This document shows, in pieces, positions 899 through 25,999 of a stretch of DNA of 34,570 bases. Each line of letters begins with the position of its first letter. Position 1 is the stretch's first letter. The stretch lies in IMG/VR virus record IMGVR_UViG_3300048033_000376, positions 1 to 34,570 of that record; one strand, 5' to 3'. The DNA comes from a virus. A program made the position numbers and the translations under genes. The notes beneath the pieces were generated by a model. The model did not search any database and was not told the origin of the DNA. It worked only from the letters and a program-made list of their open reading frames with translations.

Positions 899-3800
899 AT
901 GGCTCTGATTGATCTGAACATTCCGGCTGGCGTTTACCGAAACGGCACTGACCTGCAATCAAAGGGCCGCTGGAGAGACGCAAACCTCGTCCGCTGGCAT
1001 GATGGCGTTATGCGCCCTATAGGTGGATGGCGTACACGATCCTCAGACCAAGCCTCCGCACCACTACGCGGTATGCTGTCTTGGGTTGATAACGGCAACA
1101 ACGCCCACGTCGCATCTGGCAGCTTTGACCGCCTATACGCTTGGAGCGCCGCAGGGTTTATCCAAGACATTACGCCAAGCAACCTCACAGTTGGCCGCAT
1201 TGATGCGGATGCCTTTACAGGCTTCGGCGGCGGCTTCTTCGGCACATCCACATTCGGCACCGTCCGCCCCTTCACATCTCGCGTGCAGCCAGCAACAAGT
1301 TGGAACCTGCAACCGTGGGGCGAATACCTGATCGCCATGAACTCCGATGACGGCAAGATATACGAGTGGGACTTGGGCACTACGCTTGGCGACGAGCTTG
1401 TCCTGACGCCCGACTTTGCCTCAGACACAAACTGGACGAAGGGTAACGGCGGCGCAGGCGGCTCCAACTGGTCCATTGCTGGCGGGATCGCTAAATACGC
1501 TCACCTCATTGAGACCTTTGACGGCGGCGACGATGCTATCGCTGACCCCGCGACTGACACCATCACGATCACTGGCCACGGCCTAGCTGACGGCGATGAG
1601 GTTATCTACAGCGTCCCTGCCGCCCCTGCCACGGCCATCAGCGGCCTGACAGACGGCAACACATATTACATCATCTCGGCCACGGCCAACACGTTCCAGC
1701 TATCTGCCACCTCTGGCGGCGCGGCTGTAAACTTAACGCCAAGCAACTCGCTGACATTTGACGGCGATGACCCAGCGGTTGTGAATACTGCGGCGAATAA
1801 GATCGTCGAGGCCAACACGTTCAGCACTGGCGATTACGTTGAGTATGATAACGGCGGCGGCGTAGACATCGGCGGGCTGACCAACGGTGCAAACTACTAC
1901 ATCATTGCTGCAACTGCATCCGAGTTCCAACTGTCGCTGACATCGGGCGGTGCGGCTATCGACCTGACCCCTGACAACGCTGTCTTGTTTGACGGTGATG
2001 ACGTTGCAGTTGTGGACGTAGCCAGCGATAAAATTCTTGTAGCCAACACATTCGCAGACGGTGACGAGCTTACCTATGACAACGGCGGCGGCGTTGATAT
2101 TGGCGGCCTGACCACTGGCACGAACTACTTTGTTATTAACGCAACAGCCACAGAGTTTCAGCTATCGGCAACTTCTGGCGGTGCTGCGATCACTCTCACA
2201 GCAAACAACTCGGTCACATTTGATGGCGACGATGCGACTGTCGTTGACGTTGCGACTGACACAATCATCCAAGCGAACACGTTCACTTCCGGCGACCTTG
2301 TGACGTATAGCGCTGGCGGCGGTGTGGCTATCGGCGGCCTAACAGATGGTGCCAACTACTTCATTGTCAGCGCCACGGCGACCGACTTCCAACTGTCACT
2401 GACTTCTGGCGGCGCGGCAGTTACCCTCACTGCAAACAACTCTGTCACAGTAGACGCTACCGACGCGGCAGTGGTGGACGTTGCTACAGATGTTATAACA
2501 ATCGCCAACACGTTTGCTGACGGCGAGATCGTGACATACGACAACGGCGGCGGCACTGACATTGCTGGCTTGGTCAACGGCACGGATTACTACATCATCA
2601 ACGCCTCTGCGACTGACTTCCAAGTGTCTGCAACGTCTGGCGGCGCTGCTGTCGATCTTACTGCGCTGGGCACAGGTACAGCCCATGTGTTCCGCCAAGA
2701 CATCGGCTCATCGCATGAGGTTCGTGCAGACATTGGGTCGGCACACACGCTAGATCAGGACATCGGATCGGCTCACTTGTTCCGCGTAGACGCTGGCACT
2801 GGCCACGAGTTGTCACGCCAGAACTACGGCAACCTTGAGCAAGTTGTGGACGGCCTTAACAGCACGATCTACTTCGACGCCACTGACGCGACCGTGGTTG
2901 ACTTTGCCAATGACAAGTTTGTGATTACCTCTGATTTGGTTGAGGACGAGCAGGTAATCTACAACGTAGATGGCGGCACAGCCGTTGGTGGGCTGACAGA
3001 CGGCGCGACTTACTTTGTGGTGAACCGCACTGCAACGACATTCCAGTTGGCCCTCACTGCGGGCGGCACGCCCATCACGCTGACAGGCGTTGGTGTCGGC
3101 ACTACGCATGACTTCCGCAACACGCTGACAGATCGCGACACGCACGCCCTTCTGGTTACTCTGACCGACCCTGACGATGATAGCGACCCCGCAACGGTGC
3201 CGTCTGTTTCCGTACTGGTAACAACTACGGCCACGTCTACCGTGCTTGTGGATGAGGAGTTGGCCTTCGGTGAGAACCGCTTCCACTTCGACACGCTTGA
3301 GGATGAGGTTACGGTTGAGATCATCCCCGCAGCATTTGACACGCCCAACTTTGAGATTGATGACGTGAGCCTGCGGGTGACGCCTACCGCTGACCTTATT
3401 GAAGAAGCACCAATCGACAACCTTGGCATCGTTGTTACCGAGGAGCGCTTCCTGTTTGCTCTCGGCGCTGGCGGCAACCCTCGTAAGGTCCAGTGGTGTG
3501 ATCGCGAGGACAATACGCAGTGGACGCCCGCAACGACCAACGAGGCTGGCGATCTTGAGCTAAACACGTCTGGTCAGCTTATGGCTGGTTGCAATGTACG
3601 CGGCCAAACGCTGCTCCTGACCACCAGAGACGCCCATGTGGCGACATACGTCGGCCCGCCTTACGTTTACGGGATTGAGCGGGTAGGTACGTCCTGTGGG
3701 CTTGCTGCGCCGCAGGCTTACTCTGTTGTGGATGCTGGCTGCTTCTGGATGGGCGTCAACTCATTCTACTCTTACACGGGCAGCCAAGCACAAGAGTTGC

Positions 3801-4378
3801 AAAGCGAAATCTCTGACTACATTTTCAACGACATCAACCGCGCGCAGATCAGCAAGGTGTTTGCGGTGTCCAACAGTATGTTTGGCGAAATCTGGTGGTT
3901 CTACCCAAGTGCAGGATCGCTTGAGAATGACCGCTACGTCACGTTCAACTACATTGAGAACACTTGGAATATCGGTGAGCTTTCCCGCACCGCTGGCGTT
4001 GACCGTGGCGCGTTCCCACTGCCGCAAATGGCTGACCCATCTGACTTCAAGATTTACGAGCATGAAGTTGGGTTTAACTACGACAGCCTTATCCCGTTTG
4101 CTGAAACTGGCCCGCTCATGATCGGCGCTGGCGACACTGTTGCGTCCGTCGTGGAGATGATCCCTGACGAGAAAACGCAGGGCGACGTTGAGGCGACGTT
4201 TAAGACGCGCTTCTATCCCAATGGGACCGAGCGCAGCTATGGACCATATGACATGGCCAATCCGACCTCACTGCGCTTCACTGGCCGTCAGGTGCGTATG
4301 CGGGTCTCAGGCGTTGAGTTTGGCGATTGGCGTGTCGGGGTAAACCGCCTTGACGTTATAAGCGGTGGCCGTAGATGA
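899..4378 (+). CDS. Tail hub / nozzle protein (P22 gp10-like) with large tandem-repeat insertion
   Basis: This 1159-residue protein starts at ATG 899 behind GAGGCG. Its N-terminus (residues 1-160, with RWRDANLVRW, GGWRTRSSD, WGEYLIAMNSDDGKIYEW) and C-terminus (about 810-1159, with NPRKVQWCDRED, FWMGVNSFYSYTG, IWWFYPS, YVTFNYIENTWNIG) are the halves of a phage-stabilisation or nozzle-type beta-propeller, which forms the lower tail of short-tailed phages. P22 gp10 is about 470 residues, so this protein is more than twice that size. The extra length is an insertion between the halves: five adjacent repeats of 77-80 residues (208-598), four ten-residue repeats, then a sixth diverged long repeat (660-739). 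The inserted region probably projects outward as decoration or a host-contact arm; that is inference. It ends with an ATGA overlap with the next gene. Confidence 0.75.
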   Translation: MALIDLNIPAGVYRNGTDLQSKGRWRDANLVRWHDGVMRPIGGWRTRSSDQASAPLRGMLSWVDNGNNAHVASGSFDRLYAWSAAGFIQDITPSNLTVGRIDADAFTGFGGGFFGTSTFGTVRPFTSRVQPATSWNLQPWGEYLIAMNSDDGKIYEWDLGTTLGDELVLTPDFASDTNWTKGNGGAGGSNWSIAGGIAKYAHLIETFDGGDDAIADPATDTITITGHGLADGDEVIYSVPAAPATAISGLTDGNTYYIISATANTFQLSATSGGAAVNLTPSNSLTFDGDDPAVVNTAANKIVEANTFSTGDYVEYDNGGGVDIGGLTNGANYYIIAATASEFQLSLTSGGAAIDLTPDNAVLFDGDDVAVVDVASDKILVANTFADGDELTYDNGGGVDIGGLTTGTNYFVINATATEFQLSATSGGAAITLTANNSVTFDGDDATVVDVATDTIIQANTFTSGDLVTYSAGGGVAIGGLTDGANYFIVSATATDFQLSLTSGGAAVTLTANNSVTVDATDAAVVDVATDVITIANTFADGEIVTYDNGGGTDIAGLVNGTDYYIINASATDFQVSATSGGAAVDLTALGTGTAHVFRQDIGSSHEVRADIGSAHTLDQDIGSAHLFRVDAGTGHELSRQNYGNLEQVVDGLNSTIYFDATDATVVDFANDKFVITSDLVEDEQVIYNVDGGTAVGGLTDGATYFVVNRTATTFQLALTAGGTPITLTGVGVGTTHDFRNTLTDRDTHALLVTLTDPDDDSDPATVPSVSVLVTTTATSTVLVDEELAFGENRFHFDTLEDEVTVEIIPAAFDTPNFEIDDVSLRVTPTADLIEEAPIDNLGIVVTEERFLFALGAGGNPRKVQWCDREDNTQWTPATTNEAGDLELNTSGQLMAGCNVRGQTLLLTTRDAHVATYVGPPYVYGIERVGTSCGLAAPQAYSVVDAGCFWMGVNSFYSYTGSQAQELQSEISDYIFNDINRAQISKVFAVSNSMFGEIWWFYPSAGSLENDRYVTFNYIENTWNIGELSRTAGVDRGAFPLPQMADPSDFKIYEHEVGFNYDSLIPFAETGPLMIGAGDTVASVVEMIPDEKTQGDVEATFKTRFYPNGTERSYGPYDMANPTSLRFTGRQVRMRVSGVEFGDWRVGVNRLDVISGGRR
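1520..2692 (+). repeat. Five tandem 77-80-residue coding repeats in nozzle gene
   Basis: Units start at 1520 (80 codons), 1760, 1991 and 2222 (77 codons each) and 2453 (80 codons). Each runs from a DGDD/DATD start through an ANTF...GD region, GGG..IGGLT.G..Y, and ..ATA..FQLS.TSGGAA..LT. The three central units are exactly 231 bases apart with no indel. A sixth, diverged unit lies at 2876-3115. Confidence 0.9.
2693..2812 (+). repeat. Four tandem 10-residue repeats in nozzle gene
   Basis: Four consecutive 30-base units encode RQDIGSSHEV, RADIGSAHTL, DQDIGSAHLF and RVDAGTGHEL. They lie between the fifth and sixth long repeats, and the DIGS.H core keeps an exact 10-residue period. Confidence 0.85.
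2876..3115 (+). repeat. Sixth, diverged copy of the nozzle long repeat
   Basis: Eighty codons from DATDATVVDF to THDFR keep the GGLTDGATYFVVN and TFQLALTAGG cores of the upstream tandem units. The copy is separated from them by the ten-residue repeats and a linker of about 21 residues. Confidence 0.75.
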
Positions 4379-22943: not shown

Positions 22944-23120
22944 ATGAAACGGATTATTTCACTCGATGAGGTCAAGACAAAGATCAAGTCGCACCCAAAC
23001 ATTTCTAGGCTTGCTGAAGATTGCGGTCTGTCACGCCCGGTCATCTACAATATGCTAAACGGCACTGACCCTCGTTATACCACTTACAAGGCTCTTGCTG
23101 ATTACTTTGATGATCAATAA
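22944..23120 (+). CDS. Cro-size HTH DNA-binding protein
   Basis: A 58-residue protein starting at ATG 22944 with ATGAGGAAAACTT upstream: MKRIISLDEVKTKIKS, then an HTH (ISRLAEDCGLSRPVIYNMLN) and a short C-terminal helix (YKALADYFDD). Size, fold and place (first gene rightward of the divergent region) match Cro-like regulators. No CI-type repressor or integrase exists in the window, so it probably times early transcription rather than controlling lysogeny. Confidence 0.75.
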   Translation: MKRIISLDEVKTKIKSHPNISRLAEDCGLSRPVIYNMLNGTDPRYTTYKALADYFDDQ

Positions 23121-23124
23121 AAAA

Positions 23125-23152
23125 GGCCCGCAGCAGGGAGGTGCCACGGGCC
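23125..23152. other. Hairpin between HTH gene and replication genes
   Basis: GGCCCG (23125-23130) pairs with CGGGCC (23147-23152) around a 16-base loop that contains GGGAGGTG. On the minus strand it is followed by six T, so it could end leftward or antisense transcripts. On the plus strand no T-run follows, so attenuation or RNA stability is more likely. Confidence 0.4.
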
Positions 23153-23234: not shown

Positions 23235-23876
23235 ATGTCTCACTACATGACAGCACTGGCGATGAAGCAAAAAGGGCTGAAGCCAGCTACCAAAATCGTT
23301 TTGTATTGGATTGCAGATCATCACAACGGTGAAACGGGCAAATGCTTCCCCAGCATCGCTCGACTTTCGGCTTTGTGTGAAATTTCCCGTAGGGCTGTGG
23401 AAAACCACATAACCCTGCTCGAAGAAGCTGGTTTAGTAAAGAGGCACCCACAATATCGTGAAACTGGCGGCAAGACCGCAAACAGGTACTCACTGGAACT
23501 TATGGGAACTAATGAGAACGATAGCGATGCGCAAAATCTGCGCATGGTATGCGCAAAATCTGCGTATGGGGATGCGCAAAATCTGCGCATGAATAACCTT
23601 GGAAGTAATAACCTTGGAAATATAACTAATAAATCATCTAAAGATGATCGACTTGATTATGTCTTCAATGAGATTTGGGATTTGTATCCACGAAAGGTCG
23701 GGAAGGGCGCAGCACGCAACGCACTCAAGGCAGCTTTCAAAAAGCACGATGAGGCTGACATCAGGGTTGCTCTTTACGATTACGTTAAGACACTAGACGG
23801 CCAAGACCCGAAATATATTCCACACCTAGCAACATGGTTGAACCAAGAGCGCTGGGCAGATGAGGTAACACAATGA
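23235..23876 (+). CDS. Replication initiator-like HTH protein (lambda O type) containing the origin
   Basis: The 213-residue protein has a winged-HTH N-terminus (about 15-75: TKIVLYWIADHHN, FPSIARLSALCEISRRAVEN, HITLLEEAGLVKRH), as in phage replication proteins of the O/DnaD-like group. A low-complexity middle (about 95-130) contains DAQNLRM twice and NLGSNNLGN. The C-terminal helical domain (about 138-213: FNEIWDLYPRKVGKGAARNA, ...PHLATWLNQERWAD) is typical of primosomal phage proteins. The middle is unusual because it is made by DNA repeats (23527-23590, 23592-23619) best explained as initiator-binding sites. It overlaps the next gene by 4 bases, as O and P do in lambdoid phages. Confidence 0.75.
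   Translation: MSHYMTALAMKQKGLKPATKIVLYWIADHHNGETGKCFPSIARLSALCEISRRAVENHITLLEEAGLVKRHPQYRETGGKTANRYSLELMGTNENDSDAQNLRMVCAKSAYGDAQNLRMNNLGSNNLGNITNKSSKDDRLDYVFNEIWDLYPRKVGKGAARNALKAAFKKHDEADIRVALYDYVKTLDGQDPKYIPHLATWLNQERWADEVTQ
23527..23590. repeat. Three palindromic iterons (candidate replication origin)
   Basis: ATGCGCAAAATCTGCGCAT at 23527-23545 and 23572-23590, and a copy with one change (TGCGTAT end) at 23549-23567. Each is a 7-bp inverted repeat around AAATC. Starts are 22 and 23 bases apart, about two helical turns. The middle copy is read in a different frame from the outer two, so the DNA sequence rather than the peptide is kept. Confidence 0.8.
23592..23640. repeat. Direct repeats and AT-rich segment beside iterons (candidate unwinding element)
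   Basis: AATAACCTTGGAA is repeated at 23592-23604 and 23607-23619 (15-base period) and is followed by an AT-rich run to about 23640. Iterons flanked by an AT-rich segment inside the initiator gene is the layout of the lambda origin. Confidence 0.6.
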
Positions 23877-24358
23877 CATACGAAGAACGCATTACACAGA
23901 TCACACACATTCTCGCGCAGATACTTGGAACATATGAACCACCCAAGCACCTACGGGATAGCACAGAGGCGCAAAGGGCTGAAATCCACCTCATTGCAAA
24001 GATGGTAAACAAAACATTCCCTAACGATACAAACTCGGATCACATCGCTGGGATTATGGAAACCGCAGAGATAAGGTTAAAGCAGCGCCACAAGACACGT
24101 TCATGGCCTACTGGTGCAGCAATAGCAGACGCAGTGAAGGGCAGTTTCTCATCGCCTAAAGGGGGAGCCACTTCGGTAAGTCTTGACCCCTTTGTGATAA
24201 ACGCCAACCGCATAAAAAACAAAGAAGCGGTCGGGGATACTTGGATTGAGGGTGTTTGCGCAGATGAGTTGCTTGAGAAAGGTTTAGTAACGTCCCAAGA
24301 CCTTGCGCCATATCGCAAAAAAATAGCTTGGTTGCGAGAGAAAAACTTGATAGCCTGA
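23873..24358 (+). CDS. Possible helicase-loader-position protein
   Basis: This 161-residue protein overlaps the initiator stop by ATGA. It is helical and charged, with LRDSTEAQRAEIHLIAKMVN, HIAGIMETAEIRLKQRHKTR and SWPTGAAIADAVKGSFSSPK. No ATP-binding motif is visible. The place directly after an O-like initiator is where lambda P or DnaC-like loaders are found, so a helicase-recruiting role is a reasonable guess. Sequence alone does not show it. Confidence 0.55.
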   Translation: MTYEERITQITHILAQILGTYEPPKHLRDSTEAQRAEIHLIAKMVNKTFPNDTNSDHIAGIMETAEIRLKQRHKTRSWPTGAAIADAVKGSFSSPKGGATSVSLDPFVINANRIKNKEAVGDTWIEGVCADELLEKGLVTSQDLAPYRKKIAWLREKNLIA

Positions 24359-24594: not shown

Positions 24595-24648
24595 ACATAT
24601 CAAAGCCCCAATTGTATATTGCAGGAGCAAAACATAGAGGGCGCACCC

Positions 24649-25284
24649 ATGGAAAATGGACGGTCTTGGCCAGCAGATAAGGTCGAGCGTAGAAAAATTA
24701 GCAGTATTGTTCCTTACGCTCGGAACAGCAGAACCCACAGCGATGAGCAGGTTGCGCAGATCGCATCCAGCATCAAAGAATGGGGCTTCACTAACCCAAT
24801 CTTAGTAGACATTGACGGCGAGATCATTGCCGGGCATGGCCGCTTACTCGCAGCGCAAAAGCTGGGCCTTGATGAGGTTCCCTGCATTACCGCTGTTGGA
24901 TGGTCTGAAGCGCAAAAGAAAGCCTATGTCATTGCCGATAACAAGCTGGCTATAAACGCTGGCTGGGATGTTGAGTTGTTACGCATTGAGCTTGATGAGC
25001 TAACCGATCTAAATTTTGACGTAAATCTTACAGGCTTTAGCGATGATGAAATCCTAAACCTTTCATTCGACAATGACGCTGAAGCTGAAATGCCTGATCT
25101 GGCCGATGGTGATCGAGAGCCATTCCAGCAGATGACTTTTACAATGCATGACGATCAGGCCGAAGAAGTGCGCGCTGCGATAGAAAAGGCTAAAGCTATG
25201 GGGCCATTTGTTGAAACTGCGAATGAAAACGGCAACGGAAATGCGTTGGCCAGAATTTGTGAGACTTTCAATGGCCTCAGCTAA
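24649..25284 (+). CDS. ParB/Srx-like protein paired with Mom
   Basis: I choose ATG 24649 (211 residues, GAGGGC upstream) over the TTG at 24619. Residues 7-100 are a ParB-like domain: ISSIVPYARNSRTHS, IKEWGFTNPILVDIDGEIIA, GHGRLLAAQKLGL, then AYVIADNKLAINAGWD. Residues about 115-140 (DLNFDVNLTGFSDDEILNLS) match the linker that usually joins such a domain to a DNA methyltransferase, but no methyltransferase follows in this chain. The C-terminal part (QMTFTMHDDQAEEVRAAIEK, NENGNGNALARICE) is of a type I associate with phage ParB proteins next to mom genes. It probably assists DNA modification, perhaps by NTP-dependent DNA binding or nicking. It overlaps mom by 14 bases. Confidence 0.75.
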   Translation: MENGRSWPADKVERRKISSIVPYARNSRTHSDEQVAQIASSIKEWGFTNPILVDIDGEIIAGHGRLLAAQKLGLDEVPCITAVGWSEAQKKAYVIADNKLAINAGWDVELLRIELDELTDLNFDVNLTGFSDDEILNLSFDNDAEAEMPDLADGDREPFQQMTFTMHDDQAEEVRAAIEKAKAMGPFVETANENGNGNALARICETFNGLS

Positions 25285-25999
25285 AGACATAGTGGTTAAG
25301 CCGATCACGGCGCAGGCAGCGAAAAAGCTGGTGAAGGCAATTCATTACAGCGGGAAAGTTGCAGCAAATTCTCAGCTTCACTTTGGGGTTTTCCTTAACG
25401 GAAGGCTCGAGGGCGCAATGCAATTTGGTCCATCGCTCGACAAACGAAAGACCCAGGGGCTTGTCGAGGGGACTGGTTGGAACGGCTTTCTTGAACTGAA
25501 CCGCATGGCCTTTTCCGATGTTCTTCCTCGAAACAGCGAAAGCAGGGCGCTTGGCGTTGCGATGCGGTTAATCAAAAAGCACTATCCGCACATTGAGTGG
25601 GTGATTAGTTTTTCAGATGGGACGCAGTGCGGGGATGGCACAATCTATCGCGCAAGCGGGTTTGTTCTGACTGGCATCAAGAAGAATACCAGTATTTGGG
25701 AAGCGCCAGATGGATCAACCGCAACAGATTTAAGCCTTCGACTTGGATTGCAGAATAAAGCGCCAAAGGTGATCAGTAAAACGACTATGACAAAGGGCAA
25801 AGCCATAACCCAAACTGGCGCGTCTTCAATGAAGCCATTTAGAGAGGCTGGATATAAGCCAAAAGAAGGCTTCCAACTTCGATATGTTTACTTCCTTACC
25901 CCAAAGGCAAAAGAAAGGCTAACAGTTCCTATTTTACCGTTCAGCAAAATTGACGAGATGGGCGCTGGTATGTATAAAGGGGAAAAGCGTGACAAGTAG
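25271..25999 (+). CDS. mom: Mom-type adenine modification enzyme
   Basis: ATG 25271 gives 242 residues, close to the length of Mu Mom; the frame is open from 25208 but earlier starts lie inside the ParB gene. The GNAT-like Mom pattern includes AIHYSGKV with His25-Tyr26, LHFGVFLNGRLEGAMQFGPS, FLELNRMAFSD, LGVAMRLIKKHYPHIEWVIS, FSDGTQCGDGTIYRASGF. Mu Mom converts adenines in phage DNA to a carbamoylmethyl form and so blocks many restriction enzymes. It has no good ribosome site of its own (GAGACTTTCA), so it is probably translated by coupling to the ParB gene, keeping a toxic modifier low. Sequence specificity is unknown. Confidence 0.75.
   Translation: MASAKDIVVKPITAQAAKKLVKAIHYSGKVAANSQLHFGVFLNGRLEGAMQFGPSLDKRKTQGLVEGTGWNGFLELNRMAFSDVLPRNSESRALGVAMRLIKKHYPHIEWVISFSDGTQCGDGTIYRASGFVLTGIKKNTSIWEAPDGSTATDLSLRLGLQNKAPKVISKTTMTKGKAITQTGASSMKPFREAGYKPKEGFQLRYVYFLTPKAKERLTVPILPFSKIDEMGAGMYKGEKRDK

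Follow-up and report, generated by a model that had tools for sequence, protein, structure and literature searches.

An HTH_36 phage initiator gene with a predicted internal replication origin and iterons that covary with its recognition helix

Intragenic origins in lambda and other systems

A replication origin inside the gene of its own initiator is already known from phage lambda, where gene P, which follows O, loads the helicase and a leftward oop RNA lies ahead of O. RepA of staphylococcal pSK41 also binds iterons within its own gene. In lambda and the Stx phages, iterons to which O binds, followed by an AT tract, occupy the middle of the O gene, and O is a dimer (PMC7466680, PMC3349717).

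Here we describe a lambda-O-like arrangement in IMG/VR record IMGVR_UViG_3300048033_000376, a metagenome virus represented by an unfinished contig of 34,570 bases, all of which was analyzed (hereafter the window). For this locus we computed the sites, their constant geometry, the constraint acting at the DNA level, the minimum of duplex stability, the predicted protein fold and the covariation between helix and iterons; from these we infer binding, melting, helicase loading and the start of replication, and the locus is very likely a replication origin carried inside its initiator gene. An earlier note on this DNA had proposed a lambda-O-like layout with unrelated iterons, a proposal supported by the iterons, the unwinding element, the initiator fold, the coding of a predicted disordered linker and the lambda-P-like fold predicted for the protein encoded downstream.

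What this locus shares with lambda ori (NC_001416, 39034–39160) is its central placement within the initiator gene and the succession of iterons and AT-rich tract; the components differ. The phage initiator is an HTH_36 protein that, judged by the profiles tested, is unrelated to O in sequence, with no lambda-O-type Pfam model among its matches up to E 0.1. Lambda has four iterons and the Stx phages have six, compared with three here, whose arms are unrelated in sequence. Annotated lambda iterons are spaced by 20, 24, and 23, whereas the spacing here is a constant 22/23, and AACCTTGGAA repeats stand in place of the lambda AT tract. Lambda P and the 161-aa product of the next gene are alike in predicted fold only.

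Other described initiators share single components with this locus. The HTH_36 genes annotated as "replication initiation O-like" in SfV, ST64B, AsXd-1, Klebsiella RAH1, and Vibrio D65 (phrog_270/391) belong to the same domain family and, as here, carry repeated sites after the winged helix and then AACC repeats, but their spacing is mostly 21/24 and their arms and AACC repeats differ from those of this phage. RepA-type initiators (4pt7 and 4pql, with PDB titles "Structure of initiator" and "N-Terminal domain of DNA binding protein") have the winged-helix fold in common (Z 9.2–9.4) but belong to Gram-positive plasmids, unlike this phage, and the RepA_N profile is absent from the initiator's Pfam matches up to E 0.1. 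The BK5-T record contains an annotated repeat region in replication gene ORF49 (34602–34683; L364/L370 in our set), possibly another intragenic origin. The literature searched, which left most subscription journals outside its scope, held no description of a helix–iteron code or of HTH_36 intragenic origins, SfV-type genes included; by this literature, the three-iteron HTH_36 version, its rigid 22/23 geometry, its codon-locked AACC repeats, and the readable code look new.

Iterons and unwinding repeats in the initiator gene

Profile matches place the protein in replication-initiator families. HTH_36 (PF13730) matches its N-terminus with E 7.7e-15 (54.9 bits vs. a cut-off of 25), and phrog_270, a replication initiation family, matches residues 1–211 with E 2.8e-43; phrog_391 is the other initiator family matched. 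A sequence search of the PDB returned no significant relative. The nearest solved folds to the initiator model include the DnaD N-terminus (2v79), the initiators 4pql and 4pt7, and 5kbj, and fold likeness alone proves no function because winged helices are common. Features of the locus are collected in Table 1.

Table 1. Features of the predicted origin and of adjoining genes, in window coordinates
Feature	Position	Strand	Basis
Cro/C1-type HTH gene, first of rightward operon	22944..23120	+	profile matches
Leftward intrinsic terminator before initiator gene, in a position like that of tO/oop in lambda	23125..23152	-	terminator prediction
HTH_36/phrog_270 replication initiator gene, 213 aa	23235..23876	+	profile matches
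Winged-helix DNA-binding domain, codons 1–90	23235..23504	+	AF2 model
Recognition helix, residues 52–64	23388..23426	+	AF2 model, covariation
Arg53 codon	23391–23393	+	
Glu56 codon	23400–23402	+	
Predicted disordered linker, codons 95–135; its DNA is the predicted origin	23517..23639	+	pLDDT <50 at 95–107 and 113–135
Iteron 1, ATGCGCAAAATCTGCGCAT	23527..23545	+	repeat analysis
Iteron 2, ATGCGCAAAATCTGCGTAT, one base different from outer copies, shifted reading frame	23549..23567	+	
Iteron 3, ATGCGCAAAATCTGCGCAT	23572..23590	+	repeat analysis
Predicted DNA unwinding element	23592..23671	.	duplex stability minimum
Unwinding-element repeat 1, AACCTTGGAA	23595..23604	+	repeat and codon analysis
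Unwinding-element repeat 2, AACCTTGGAA	23610..23619	+	repeat and codon analysis
Helical C-terminal domain, codons 136–203, replaced in some relatives	23640..23843	+	AF2 model
161-aa gene overlapping initiator stop, candidate helicase loader	23873..24358	+	predicted fold, conservation

Three 19-bp near-palindromes (ATGCGCAAAATCTGCGYAT) lie within the HTH_36 gene, spaced from start to start by 22 and then 23, which confirms what the earlier note had read from this DNA. Their symmetrical unit is GCA-RAWTY-TGC with arms of at most 9 bases, and the center AAATC in this phage is a mix of two half forms found in relatives. The outer iterons have a common codon phase and both encode DAQNLRM, whereas the middle iteron is shifted by one base, again as claimed, and reads VCAKSAYG. 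Elsewhere in the 34,570 bases, the iteron has no match with fewer than 5 mismatches. The iteron array is the sole strong tandem array of the window: Tandem Repeats Finder reported this array (score 111), a 9-bp array that just reached the minimum score of 50, and nothing else.

Relatives were collected from IMG/VR (five scans) and from sequenced genomes (one scan), which together yielded 112 distinct genes. The patterns of the first scan included the DAQNLRM peptide and so were biased toward the same iteron, while later scans used the N-terminal domain only, up to residue 91. Iterons were sought blind in these genes, as three similar palindromes 19–27 bases apart. Spacing is 22/23 in 99 of the 112 genes, 23/23 in 8, 21/23 in 4, and 22/24 in 1. 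The first AACC repeat lies 14 nt from iteron 3 in 93 genes and 11 nt from it, one codon less, in 14. Because 22 + 23 = 45 nt, or 15 codons, the outer iterons share a frame and the middle one never does. The arms themselves are wholly different between clades and include GCGCARAWTYTGCGC, TGGCAGAATCTGCCA, GTCGCAAAATGCGAC, GTTGCAAAACGCAAC, GGAAAATATTTCC, GGACAAATTGTCC, and GTCAAAAATTTTGAC, among others. Many clades, including those of L021, L096, L107, and L130, separate their iterons by homopolymer spacers of C or G (CCCCCCC, GGGGGGG).

Two in-frame copies of DAQNLRM could also suggest that the repeats are a feature of the protein, a repeated linker peptide of which the DNA similarity is a consequence. 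We consider this exceedingly improbable: the middle copy gives a different peptide, the linker is predicted to be disordered, and when the protein was held fixed and its codons redrawn from phage usage, 0/5000 synonymous randomizations produced three exact copies of at least 14 bases (16 observed). The peptides of relatives are also quite different at the same DNA spacing. The earlier note had argued for selection on the DNA and had named relatives that keep the peptide and lose the palindromes as evidence against it; the opposite is found, with relatives that lack DAQNLRM (WQNLP, VANCDP, KIFPIP, and others in its place) retaining three sites at 22/23 spacing and a middle copy out of frame. 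Selection for the sites as DNA is thus supported both by the randomizations and by relatives that keep the sites and not the peptide.

Two 13-mers (AATAACCTTGGAA) follow the iterons at 23592–23604 and 23607–23619; these direct repeats, noticed before, are real, and the AT-rich run reported with them forms part of the least stable DNA of the window. Among all 34,491 80-mers in the 34.6 kb, the one starting at 23592 has the lowest duplex stability, such that an easily melted AT-rich tract adjoins the iterons within the initiator gene. We counted codons in the relatives' genes wherever the protein in the repeat region reads Asn-Leu-Gly or a variant. There the codons are AAC in 218/219, CTT in 184/199, and GGA in 151/151 cases, compared with 47%, 19%, and 27% of their respective amino acids elsewhere in the same genes. 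This nearly uniform usage relative to the rest of the genes shows that the AACCTTGGAA sequence itself is kept and that the unwinding repeats are codon-locked, that is, under constraint at the DNA level. Coding and origin functions would conflict less here because iterons and repeats both sit in codons of the disordered linker.

Winged-helix proteins often repress via palindromes, and these sites lie in a transcribed gene, which raises the alternative of an operator through which the HTH protein blocks transcription of its own gene, with replication starting elsewhere. However, the sites are ~290 nt inside the gene and not at its promoter, they keep a fixed distance to the codon-locked AACC repeats and to the least stable DNA of the window, and the protein falls in replication-initiator families. 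We regard an operator in place of an origin as very unlikely; autoregulation could coexist with an origin.

Covariation of recognition helix and iteron arms

We registered half-sites by geometry, counting from the AACC repeats, and compared distances across 68 representatives. Iteron-arm distance is associated with the distance between helix residues 51–58 (Mantel r 0.67), with a partial r of 0.63 given the rest of the domain that was reached in 0/2000 permutations; for the rest of the domain, r is 0.44. Residue 56 ranks first among 61 variable columns (R2 0.79) and is the top column for base 6.

The pairing of residues with bases is regular. Allowing one vote per distinct helix, Arg53 occurs with C5 in 21/21 helices and Glu at residue 56 with G6 in 9/9. 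A6 accompanies Ile (12/12), Val (9/9), and His (3/3) at residue 56, and C6 accompanies Arg (6/7), Lys (2/2), and Gln (4/5). We also examined distant HTH_36 initiators from Rhodobacterales genomes and from enterobacterial, Vibrio, Klebsiella, and Aeromonas phages. Among these genes, which are partly close kin so that counts are not independent, residue 56 pairs with A6 as Asn (13/13), Met (4/4), and Phe (2/2); Arg53 pairs with C5 in 5/6, again with close kin among the genes. Doubtful automatic iteron picks (L332, L333, L354, L356) and a pick inside the AACC repeats (L361) were all counted as they fell.

Usual protein–DNA contacts include Arg-G, Glu-C, Asn-A, and aliphatic-T. The pairings of residues 53 and 56 match these side-chain preferences, with Arg facing G, Glu facing C, and aliphatic side chains facing T when the opposite strand is read, as would be expected if the two residues contact the bases. 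Not all of the covariation counts are independent of one another. A tree built from the remainder of the domain shows 7 changes of the Ile/Val state and 8 of the A6-C7 state, and well-supported branches provide only 3 independent pairs, all agreeing in most draws and too few for significance alone.

Comparisons between close relatives suggest how specificity changes. Between L127 and L171, identity is 83% in the initial 135 nt and 92% in the unwinding repeats, but only 29% in recognition-helix codons and 19% in iteron arms. Similarly, L096 and L228 share 87% of the preceding sequence, 97% of the repeats, and 93% of what follows, compared with 46% in the helix and 55% in the arms. Among background-matched pairs, mean iteron distance is 0.10 for the 166 that agree at residue 56 and 0.58 for the 128 that differ there. 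Relatives with near-identical flanks have thus swapped helix and iterons jointly. In L046, L043, and L050, the N-terminal domain and origin layout are the same and an unrelated C-terminal domain begins right after the AACC repeats, a pattern that points to domain exchange at the origin.

Such exchange bears on a further possibility, in which the sites are an origin but helix and iterons covary through joint recombination, without contact between residue and base. Helix and iterons lie within ~250 nt, and phages do exchange segments. Yet residues 67–90, nearer to the iterons in the DNA, covary less than the helix does (Mantel r 0.42 vs. 0.67; partial 0.31 vs. 0.63), the column ranked highest for base 6 falls in the recognition helix, at residue 56, the residue–base pairs fit textbook contacts, and regular pairing appears again in distant relatives. 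We judge linkage by itself to be an unlikely explanation.

We favor, as probable, a reading in which HTH_36 initiators, together with the iterons inside their genes, make up a readable code that is complete in itself. Residue 53 would specify base 5 and residue 56 base 6 by ordinary side-chain chemistry at fixed 22/23 bp, with specificity changed by joint exchange of helix and iterons while the flanks and the codon-locked AACCTTGGAA repeats are kept. Since the binding site is part of the gene itself, every genome supplies a DNA-reading helix matched with its target, and if the code is true, every sequenced member adds one protein–target pair without experiment. Initiator specificity, and the way in which origins take on a new identity while still functioning, could be tested from sequence and then by single substitutions. 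A rule for finding origins in the many phages with an O-like protein of HTH_36 type follows: a linker with three palindromes, outer centers ~45 bp apart, and then AACC repeats. Co-infecting phages and prophages may be expected to fall into separate incompatibility groups according to helix class.

Neighboring genes and a proposed route to initiation

The initiator stands between the Cro-like gene and the 161-aa gene. The latter is conserved beside initiators of several helix classes and has no Pfam or PHROGs match. Its predicted fold aligns most closely with the lambda P chain in a complex with DnaB (Z 9.7, rmsd 2.7, 87 residues, without sequence similarity), a middling match given Z of at most 8.5 for the next rows, which are unrelated proteins, and a weak Foldseek E of 1.3. 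The 161-aa protein is a candidate helicase loader. In regions upstream of the initiator gene from 64 relatives, a leftward terminator is predicted in 37/64 and a rightward one in 0/64. A search for a leftward promoter of an oop-like RNA gave no convincing match, with as many hits as in shuffles. By analogy with oop/tO of lambda, the leftward terminator makes an oop-like antisense RNA possible.

We propose that a dimer of the winged-helix N-terminus occupies each of the three palindromic iterons and that, in every half-site, base 5 is read by Arg53 and base 6 by residue 56. The complex on three sites 22–23 bp apart would strain the adjacent AT-rich AACCTTGGAA repeats and cause melting, and the C-terminal domain together with the downstream candidate loader, lambda-P-like in predicted fold, would bring in the host DnaB helicase. 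Recruitment of host DnaB is proposed because neither a helicase nor a polymerase is seen in the phage: in agreement with the earlier note, which had described a phage without a polymerase, the ~30 ORFs scanned yielded neither, an absence that weighs little because the record may be incomplete. The SU10-type capsid claimed there is borne out by profile matches to capsid and portal genes.

When the winged-helix profile was run once against sequenced genomes, it found two close relatives only, in Donghicola and Thalassobacter, which suggests hosts among the Rhodobacterales. Cumulative skew, taken for GC as the earlier note had advised and also for AT and purines, is uninformative here because the AT and purine minima at 22.9–23.1 kb coincide with divergent gene orientation. 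DnaA boxes were likewise set aside: 41 matches with at most one mismatch occur vs. 65 expected, and those near the origin are mainly the iteron halves themselves. An Rfam search of 22.5–24.5 kb gave no match.

Elsewhere in the window, a ParB-like gene (24619–25284) is followed by a Mom-like DNA modification gene (25208–25999; phrog_1384, E 7.9e-52). A 1159-aa virion protein (899–4378) contains several copies of a ~60-residue repeat in its middle, of which family matches show up to 5 stretches.
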